64,000 nucleotides of DNA, taken from positions 1-64,000 of the forward strand of contig SCUO01000049.1 of NCBI GenBank assembly GCA_004297395.1. Direction: 5' to 3'. Below are positions 6,016 through 19,584 of the stretch, piece by piece. Positions within the stretch are counted from its first letter, which is position 1, and every line of letters starts with the position of its first letter. The position numbers and the translations under genes are program-made. The stretch comes from Chloroflexota bacterium. GTDB lineage: Bacteria > Chloroflexota > Limnocylindria > Limnocylindrales > CSP1-4. The notes below the pieces were generated by a model, which saw only the letters and a list, made by a program, of their open reading frames with translations, searched no databases and was not told the origin of the DNA.

Positions 6016-6096
6016 TTCGCGAGGCGAAGTACGCGCCGCCGCAACGCCGCTGCGAGATTCGTTAAGGAATTTACACATCCCGCGCGTCGAAAAGGG

Positions 6097-6125
6097 TTGG
6101 ATTCGAGCGCCCGTTCGGATAGACT
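6097..6125 (+). promoter_or_regulatory. Predicted sigma-70-type promoter for a non-coding RNA
   Basis: TTGGAT (6097-6102) and TAGACT (6120-6125) are separated by exactly 17 bases, in the most A+T-rich stretch of the area (TTCGTTAAGGAATTTACACA lies just upstream, like an UP element). No plus-strand gene follows within 1.5 kb, so the expected product is the structured RNA starting near 6132. Confidence 0.5.
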
Positions 6126-6131
6126 CACTCG

Positions 6132-6305
6132 TGCACTGCGTTCGCGCAGTCCGCTGCCCCAGCGGCAAGGTCATGGGTAGGTTGGGTCAGGGTAGTCGGT
6201 GCAGCCGACGTGATAGATGCCTTTGACGCGTGGGGAGCATCCGTTTCGGCGGGTGGTCACCGGGACAGCAACGAAGCGGCTCCTTCGGGAGCCGCTTCGA
6301 CGTTT
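6132..6305 (+). ncRNA. Candidate structured non-coding RNA of about 170 nt
   Basis: Downstream of the predicted promoter there are consecutive hairpins: ACTGCG-TTCG-CGCAGT (6135-6150), CCGCTG-CCC-CAGCGG (6151-6165) and GTCGGT-GCA-GCCGAC (6195-6209). Between the second and third is a G-run segment (GGGTAGGTTGGGTCAGGG). The region ends in a 12-bp stem with a TTCG loop (6272-6299). The size would suit a regulatory RNA, but I do not recognise a 6S, SRP, tmRNA or RNase P signature. A 17-codon ORF (ATG 6173 to TGA 6226) could alternatively make this a leader peptide region. Confidence 0.45.
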
Positions 6306-7741
6306 CCGGCCACAGCGTGCGAATCTCGCAGGCCGCCGATGACCTCGGCCAGGCGTCGGACGGCGTCATCGATGGCCCGCTCGGCGATCGCCCCGTAGCC
6401 GAAGACGAGCCCGCCCGGGGTTCCCGGGGTGGCGACGGCGCCGATCGCCGCGCCCGGCGCCAGCGAGCCGATGCCGATGCCGGCCGCCGCGGCGACTGTC
6501 ACGATCGCTTCGGGGTCCAGCCCCGCCGGCAGCCAGGCGAGGATGTGGAGCCCTGCCGCTGCCCCCACCGGCCGAAGCTCCGGGAGGTGACGGGCGAGGG
6601 CGGCGAGGAGCACGTCCCGCCGGCGGCGGTAGATCGGGCGCATCCGCCGGAGGTGGCGGTCGAGCTCGCCCCGGGCGATGAAATCGGCGAACGCCAGCTG
6701 GTCGATGGCCGGCGAGCCCTGGTCGATGGCCTTCTTGGTGGCCGCCAGGCGGGTGGCCAGGTCCTGGGGCGCGACGAGCCAGCCCAGCCGGAGCCCCGGC
6801 GCGAGGACCTTGCTCGCCGAGCCGGCGTAGACGACGCGGTCCGGGCGGAGCCCCTGGAGCGCCCCGATCGGCTCGCGGTCGTAGCGGTACTCGGCGTCGT
6901 AGTCGTCCTCGACGACCAGGGCGTGATGGCGATCGGCCCAGGCCAGGAGGGCGGCCCGCCGATCCGGCGAGAGGACCCGTCCGGTCGGGTACTGGTGGGC
7001 GGGCGTCACCAGCACGCCGGCCACGTCGGCCCGGGACAGGATGTCCACCCGGAGGCCGTGCTCGTCGACCGGGATCGGTACGACCTGGAGACCTGTCGTC
7101 CCGACGATGAAGGCCGAATCGCCGAGGGTCGGGTCCTCCATCGCGAAGCGCCGCGCCCCGTCGGCCCGGAGGACGGTCGCGATCAGCCAGATGCCCTGGG
7201 CGAAGCCCGTGCTCACCACGATGTCGTCGGGATGGGCGACCGTGCCCCGCACCCGGTTGAGATACGCGGCGAGCTCCAGCCGGAGCTCGGGGATGCCACG
7301 GCCGTCGAGGTAGCCGAGGCGGGCGGCGGGCGCCCCCGACAGGGTCCTCCGGAGCGACCGCAACCAGGCTTCCCGGGGGAATGCCTCCACGTCGGGGCGA
7401 CCGGGTCGCAGGTCGATCTCGAACTGGACCGGCTGGGTGGGCCGGGGCGCGGTCGATCGGGTCGACGCGGCCCGGGCCACGCGGGTGGTGCCACCCGGCC
7501 GGCTCTCGAGGTAGCCCTCGGCGACGAGCTGCTCGTAGGCCTCGACCGCGATCCCTCTCGACACGCCCGCCTCGGCCGCCAGTGCACGTGTCGAGGGCAG
7601 GCTCGCCCCGGGTGCCAGTCGCCCGCGCCGGATGCCGTCACGGAGCGCCCGCTCGAGCTGGCGATGGATCGGTTCGGGCGACGCCCGATCGATCTCGACG
7701 AGCAGCTCGGGAGCAGAACTGGTCCTCGTTCTCGACATCAA
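6257..7741 (-). CDS. MocR/PdxR-type GntR regulator with aminotransferase-like domain
   Basis: At 494 residues it has the usual two-domain MocR length. Residues about 15-85 form a winged helix (PIHRQLERALRDGI, LPSTRALAAEAGVSRG). The rest is a fold-type I aminotransferase domain with EDPTLGD, the EDDYDAEYRYD motif and the PLP lysine in GSASKVLAPGLRLGW. Such proteins sense PLP or amino compounds and regulate a neighbouring gene rather than transaminate. The divergent gene set (small membrane protein, PPOX) lies across an operator-like repeat. The last 20 or so residues (after LAEVIGGL) look unconserved and are encoded by the terminator hairpin. Confidence 0.9.
   Translation of the reverse strand: MMSRTRTSSAPELLVEIDRASPEPIHRQLERALRDGIRRGRLAPGASLPSTRALAAEAGVSRGIAVEAYEQLVAEGYLESRPGGTTRVARAASTRSTAPRPTQPVQFEIDLRPGRPDVEAFPREAWLRSLRRTLSGAPAARLGYLDGRGIPELRLELAAYLNRVRGTVAHPDDIVVSTGFAQGIWLIATVLRADGARRFAMEDPTLGDSAFIVGTTGLQVVPIPVDEHGLRVDILSRADVAGVLVTPAHQYPTGRVLSPDRRAALLAWADRHHALVVEDDYDAEYRYDREPIGALQGLRPDRVVYAGSASKVLAPGLRLGWLVAPQDLATRLAATKKAIDQGSPAIDQLAFADFIARGELDRHLRRMRPIYRRRRDVLLAALARHLPELRPVGAAAGLHILAWLPAGLDPEAIVTVAAAAGIGIGSLAPGAAIGAVATPGTPGGLVFGYGAIAERAIDDAVRRLAEVIGGLRDSHAVAGNVEAAPEGAASLLSR
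6272..6299. terminator. Perfect 12-bp hairpin with TTCG loop, likely two-way terminator
   Basis: CGAAGCGGCTCC, loop TTCG, GGAGCCGCTTCG form an uninterrupted stem. On the plus strand it is followed by ACGTTT; on the minus strand there is no T-run. It lies inside the last codons of the convergent MocR gene, so it can end both the candidate RNA and the MocR transcript. Confidence 0.6.
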
Positions 7742-17993: not shown

Positions 17994-18069
17994 GCGCCTG
18001 TAGCTCAGTGGATAGAGCGTCGGCCTCCGGAGCCGAAGGTCGCAGGTTCGAATCCTGTCGGGCGCGCCA
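17994..18069 (+). tRNA. tRNA-Arg (anticodon CCG)
   Basis: The acceptor stem GCGCCTG pairs with CGGGCGC (one G-T pair), followed by G and CCA. The anticodon stem TCGGC/GCCGA holds the loop CTCCGGA, so the anticodon is CCG. The D-arm begins TAGCTCAGTGGATAGAGC and the T-loop is TTCGAAT. The final 18 bases, including CCA, recur exactly at 31282-31299. Confidence 0.96.
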
Positions 18070-19239: not shown

Positions 19240-19584
19240 GGCTACATCAACCTCCTCGACGTCATGGGACGCGACTGTGCAAGCGTAGCCGCCGCGGATC
19301 CAGACGCCATGTGCCAGATGCCACGAATGATCGGCGGCGTCCGGTGATCCGAGCCAAGACGCGATGGGTCGGGAAGGCGCGCATCGAGGATCGACTCGAG
19401 CTGCGCCGTGGTCGCCGCGCGACGTTCATCCGCACGCCTGTAGCTCTGCGGAACGAGCGTCGCTCTCCGGAGCCGAAGGTTGCAGGTTCGAATCCTGTCG
19501 GCGCGCGATTTTGGGATTGGTCGCCAGGTCGCGGCCGCGCGTCAAACTCCTCCAGGGGTCGGCCGAGTGCCCAGAATCCGTGAC
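19240..19584. other. Non-coding stretch with degenerate tRNA copy
   Basis: No gene is supported here. The only recognisable object is the tRNA-Arg-like remnant at 19434-19508. The stretch separates the CxxC protein gene from a broken cupin-cyclase gene. Confidence 0.5.
19434..19508 (+). pseudogene. Degenerate tRNA-Arg(CCG) copy
   Basis: Compared with the tRNA at 17994, the anticodon loop CTCCGGA, the variable region and the entire T-arm (GCAGGTTCGAATCC) are kept. The D-arm is rewritten (TGCGGAAC in place of AGTGGATA), GC is replaced by CT in the anticodon stem, one G is lost near the 3' end, and CCA is replaced by CGA. It cannot fold as a normal tRNA and is read as a pseudogene or a trace of integration. 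Confidence 0.75.

Follow-up and report, generated by a model that had tools for sequence, protein, structure and literature searches.

The DNA analyzed here (the window, 64,000 nucleotides in length) shows no gene on the plus strand from position 6016 to about 7.8 kb, in agreement with the preliminary description, which had noted no same-strand gene for 1.5 kb. This same region was proposed to encode a new small RNA of about 170 nt, transcribed from its own promoter. The question is whether such an RNA gene really exists (predicted at 6132–6306, plus strand) and, if so, what kind of RNA it might be. The host belongs to Candidatus Limnocylindria (Chloroflexota), a class of little-studied soil and freshwater bacteria. 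Promoter-like hexamers, hairpins, a G-run and a terminator stem prove little without comparison, and the folding energy of the region (z = -2.5 on the plus strand vs. -4.0 on the opposite strand) is modest evidence when taken alone.

Homologous sequences provided a much clearer picture. Of 61 genomes covered by a DNA search, 51 hold the element, almost all of them in one copy, with E-values down to 5e-109 outside its own genome, and conservation of this degree places it far above chance. A covariance model was then built from 25 homologues. A covariance search over relatives had been suggested as a check on the initial proposal. Searching with the model found homologues in 123 of 177 Ca. Limnocylindria genomes, nearly always one per genome, and two helices (P2 and P3, see below) show compensatory changes. 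The matches include family f2, whose genomes are near 1.1 Mb in size, and family f4. Two other families of the class, f3 and f5, gave no match to the model, which indicates that part of the class can do without the RNA. When 301 and 400 genomes were sampled across the phylum, credible matches were confined to Ca. Limnocylindria. A core model gave three weak matches beyond the class, as well as a second match within it; all four were rejected on reading, the conserved loop being missing from them.

Scanning 84,980 species for the exact pattern yielded 118 stretches. Among the 80 of these that were listed, the sources are Chloroflexi MAGs, including CSP1-4, Ca. Aquidulcis, a Ca. Limnocylindrales and QHBO01; CSP1-4 and QHBO01 belong to the class Ca. 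Limnocylindria (PMC10608941). The exception among the listed stretches is a single MAG labeled Steroidobacteraceae, which contributes two (L091 and L150), both located beside a PPIase gene; it is probably a mislabeled or mixed Limnocylindria bin. No homologue was detected in 2.9 million viral contigs.

To examine the fold, we used a set of 46 distinct cores from three families, covering nine pairs of P2, the adjoining CAU/AUG pairing and the outer pairs of P3. The 5' strand of P2 lies at 6162–6170 and continues, after one mismatch, with CAU at 6172–6174. Its 3' strand (6217–6229) consists of AUG, the mismatched C6220 and then 6221–6229; nine pairs of this helix show double changes. P3 is the hairpin GUCGG-UGCAG-CCGAC (6195–6209). 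Its five pairs are canonical in 46/46 cores even though four of them vary; in f4 its loop is replaced by a GAAA or GCAA tetraloop. Overall, the P2 and outer P3 pairs were paired in 95.7% of cases across the 46 distinct cores, and changes on both sides were observed at 10 of 14 tested core pairs. The covariation score was 0.444; shuffling lowered it to 0.202, with 0/500 shuffles reaching the real value, and sliding gave 0.09 or less.

The molecule is closed by helix P1, formed by GCUGCCCC (6153–6160) and GGGACAGC (6262–6269, near invariant in f1) directly before the terminator. This helix was independently proposed by RNAalifold, and every P1 change among 34 distinct f1 variants preserves pairing. 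In f2 and f4, P1 is less certain: candidates could be read from the sequences (AGCUG/CGGCU in f2; GAUUC/GAAUC or GCUG/CAGC in f4), without covariation support. An alternative to P1, CUGCC/GGCAG, was rejected, with two pairs unpaired in 4–5 of 25 sequences and never a double change. Two further hairpins are more variable. P0 (ACUGCG-UUCG-CGCAGU, 6135–6150) occurs at the 5' end in f1 with changing sequence and is represented in f4 by GCUG-UUCGCA-CAGC, and it was not seen in f2. P4 (6241–6252) shows double changes at six pairs in f1 and was not seen in f4.

These data point to an architecture in which P1 and P2 would enclose a conserved internal loop capped by P3, rather than three independent hairpins. 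The three consecutive hairpins originally described therefore stand in part: the first (6135–6150) corresponds to P0 and the third (6195–6209) to the covarying P3, but the second (6151–6166), as extended, cannot form its first pair in 5 of the 34 distinct homologues; it yields to P1 and P2.

The most conserved part of the RNA is the asymmetric, purine-rich loop between P2 and P3, which contains about 27 near-invariant bases across several families of the class. Its 5' side, GGGUAGGUUGGGUCAGGGUA (6175–6194), follows the pattern GGGUAGGU(n)GGGUnAGGGUA, and its 3' side, GUGAUAG (6210–6216), conforms to GnGAnAG in all 46 distinct cores. The G-run segment that had attracted attention in the single sequence (6175–6192) thus turned out to be the near-invariant core. 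Reading inward from the CAU/AUG pairing, the layout is GGG-2-GG-(1 to 3)-GGG-3-GGG-UA opposite GnGAnAG, followed by P3. The G tracts were unchanged in the 46 cores of three families, and tract lengths are constant, while the second spacer has 1 nt in f2, 2 nt in most of f1 and 3 nt in f4. The patterns used to collect cores required the G tracts and are biased toward them, but the same tracts are present in those loci that only the covariance model found and that contig ends or gaps do not interrupt.

The combination of constant tracts and a variable spacer suggests that a three-dimensional element would be recognized. It also bears on a coding function, as the region could in principle specify a short peptide (ATGGGTAGG..., 17 codons in its own genome) whose frame is open from the ATG at 6173. 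A second spacer of 1, 2 or 3 nt throws the frame out of register from one family to the next and so speaks against its conservation. As the stems moreover show RNA covariation, we find the peptide hardly credible at all.

A finer version of our main reading, described below, is that the loop folds as a G-quadruplex of two tetrads, which stacks between P2 and P3 and serves as the feature that a protein or small ligand recognizes. All cores have tracts of GG or longer separated by 1–3 nt spacers, and the four tracts (3, 2, 3 and 3) are constant in length, whereas spacer sequences differ, as does the length of the second spacer (1–3 nt). However, ViennaRNA did not choose the quadruplex when such structures were allowed, although its energy model is poor for two-tetrad forms, and the first spacer is UA in 45/46 cores and the second tract is never GGG, implying sequence recognition beyond a plain quadruplex. 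We consider this refinement rather unlikely. Artificial aptamers of the Spinach type also carry a G-rich asymmetric internal loop between two helices, as the RNA does here, but in this natural case the quadruplex is hypothetical.

Upstream of the RNA, the proposed promoter has the -35 hexamer TTGGAT (6097–6102) and the -10 hexamer TAGACT (6120–6125) separated by 17 bp, exactly as first described, with a predicted transcript start near 6132. Its match to the consensus is weak (3/6 at -35 and 4/6 at -10), and a consensus scan found no sigma-70 site there. Nevertheless, TTG-N17/18-TAnnnT was present upstream of 98 of 110 distinct homologues vs. 1–6% of shuffled upstream regions, which points to a housekeeping-type promoter that would be the RNA's own. 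Farther upstream, an alignment of 30 loci revealed a 16-bp box, GTTAAGGAATTTACAC (6061–6076), conserved in f1 and looser in part of f4, with no clear counterpart in f2. It may be the site of a dedicated regulator or an upstream promoter element. The box occurs once in its own genome, even allowing up to 2 mismatches, and on account of this uniqueness it was rejected as a regulon site.

At the other end, the 12-bp terminator stem reported earlier is present directly after P1 (6272–6299, with a UUCG loop), and homologues preserve it although its sequence changes. Its U tail is weak in the present genome, and the tails of homologues range from T-poor to T-rich.

The terminator directly behind P1 and the aptamer-like conserved internal loop between helices might indicate a ligand-sensing, riboswitch-like aptamer acting in cis. 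However, the terminator is a strong separate stem with no evident antiterminator, and the genes 3' of the RNA vary among loci and are often tRNA genes or convergent genes. This variability argues against a cis-acting leader, and a riboswitch of this type appears very improbable.

Conserved synteny is found on the upstream side. The locus order common to three families is PPIase, RNA and then often tRNA-Arg(CCG), with PPIase directly upstream of the RNA in all three. In many f1 loci a hisA-like gene and a second PPIase precede the upstream PPIase, and tRNA-Arg(CCG) lies downstream at many loci. When the locus was sought through PPIase in f3 and f5, only weaker PPIase matches were found, in 2 of 6 genomes. 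Three genomes without the RNA (G009, G032 and G036) also lack the PPIase, which may reflect an assembly gap or joint loss. Within the window, two tRNA-Arg(CCG) genes are predicted 1.4 kb apart (17994–18069 and 19432–19507). The latter, perhaps an atypical or decayed copy, scores only 30 bits against the Rfam tRNA model.

A convergent MocR gene had also been proposed next to the RNA. Such an ORF (6257–7741, minus strand) does exist in this genome, and the final ~50 nt of the RNA lie within it. Between 6257 and 6305 it reaches the P1 3' strand and the terminator, so that its last ~16 codons run antisense to the RNA. In relatives, this place gave no MocR match. Since genome G008 has a 98% identical RNA followed by a cold-shock gene and no MocR match, MocR does not appear to be part of the system, and the convergence is incidental.

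The proximity of the PPIase operon raises the possibility of a base-pairing regulatory RNA, whose G-rich loop would bind C-rich mRNA leaders such as that of this neighbor. In its own genome, the loop sequence GGGUCAGGG shows complementarity to CCCUGACCC, which lies just ahead of the PPIase start; 2% of shuffles did as well. But this complementarity is not kept: the mean rank over 100 homologues was 0.36, and many of the 19 homologues with ranks at or below 0.05 are related. Moreover, about 20 invariant bases are too long for a seed. A classical pairing RNA dependent on Hfq is also disfavored, since a search of 61 class genomes turned up no Hfq. We regard pairing as improbable. Other possible partners of the loop (tRNA-Arg, a generic 16S 3' end, and the MocR and cold-shock starts) paired with it no better than shuffles did.

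Comparison with known RNA families was then carried out. Scanning Rfam (4,227 families) at gathering and relaxed thresholds, with the own sequence and distant homologues, returned chance matches only, apart from the neighboring tRNAs, and no description of this RNA was found in the literature searched. As the preliminary description had judged by eye, the models of 6S, SRP, tmRNA and RNase P RNA have no match at the RNA locus. Bona fide SRP RNA is separately encoded in the same genome (G000, contigs C26 and C25), and tmRNA and RNase P RNA are encoded elsewhere in it (C6 and C30). The RNA shares with the bacterial small SRP RNA (RF00169) a conserved internal loop between helices and a housekeeping-like distribution, but RF00169 gave no match at the locus. 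The Chloroflexi-1 motif (RF01698) is likewise a structured RNA candidate of this phylum, listed from Chloroflexus aggregans (PMC2864571); this model was in the scanned library and gave no match. Weak sub-threshold matches were obtained to the CsrA-sequestering RsmX/RsmY RNAs (clan CL00106), partly on the terminator stem; they fall far below the gathering score, and the conserved loop lacks a GGA motif.

The case of 6S RNA (RF00013) deserves closer attention. 6S was not detected in the Ca. Limnocylindria genomes examined (within G000–G176) but is present in 43 of 201 sampled phylum genomes, and the RNA described here resembles it in length, usual single copy, own promoter and stand-alone organization. 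It could accordingly be imagined as a replacement for 6S, or a far-diverged 6S, that binds the RNA polymerase holoenzyme. On the other hand, RF00013 showed no match at the locus up to E = 10, and a G-rich asymmetric loop with a 5–6 bp apical hairpin differs from the large, A/U-tolerant central bubble between long helices in 6S. Families f3 and f5 lack both RNAs, and most other genomes of the phylum likewise lack a 6S match. We therefore judge a 6S-like role distinctly improbable.

Taken together, homology, the P2/P3 fold, the positions of promoter and terminator, synteny and near-universal single copy are supported by comparison, and a conserved structured RNA at 6132–6306 is almost certainly genuine. 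With its compensatory changes, conserved promoter and terminator position, conserved synteny and lack of an Rfam match, the proposal of a new small RNA of ~170 nt with its own promoter is borne out at the sequence level. It is very probably a working RNA, and it would constitute a new family absent from the Rfam library.

As to its function, SRP, tmRNA and RNase P RNAs are encoded elsewhere, and 6S and Hfq were not detected in the class genomes examined; for these reasons we favor a stand-alone, trans-acting housekeeping or regulatory RNA specific to Ca. Limnocylindria, whose loop would bind one conserved macromolecule. We consider the arguments for and against this reading to be about evenly balanced. 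The RNA would be transcribed from its own housekeeping-type promoter, and transcription would end at the intrinsic terminator right after the closing helix P1. P1, P2 and P3 may then present the asymmetric loop for specific binding by that single conserved macromolecule, the likeliest candidate being a protein with a part in a core process. By analogy with 6S, SRP and the Ro-associated Y RNAs, the RNA might work as a component of a housekeeping or global regulatory RNP. Its single copy in nearly every matching genome, kept even in genomes of 1.1 Mb, favors this function, but long invariant loops are also known from ligand-binding RNAs. A bolder proposal, which we offer as a long shot, is that a natural two-tier G-quadruplex between two conserved helices, a Spinach-type build, may be the business end of a class-wide housekeeping RNA possibly replacing 6S.

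Our searches found no described regulatory RNA for Ca. Limnocylindria, and the present RNA would be a new family in a class whose examined genomes yielded no 6S and no Hfq. The comparative model tells which bases to mutate, making structure, partner and function directly testable. A mostly single-copy RNA with some 27 near-invariant loop bases, kept in genomes of 1.1 Mb, is likely to have an important partner in these bacteria.
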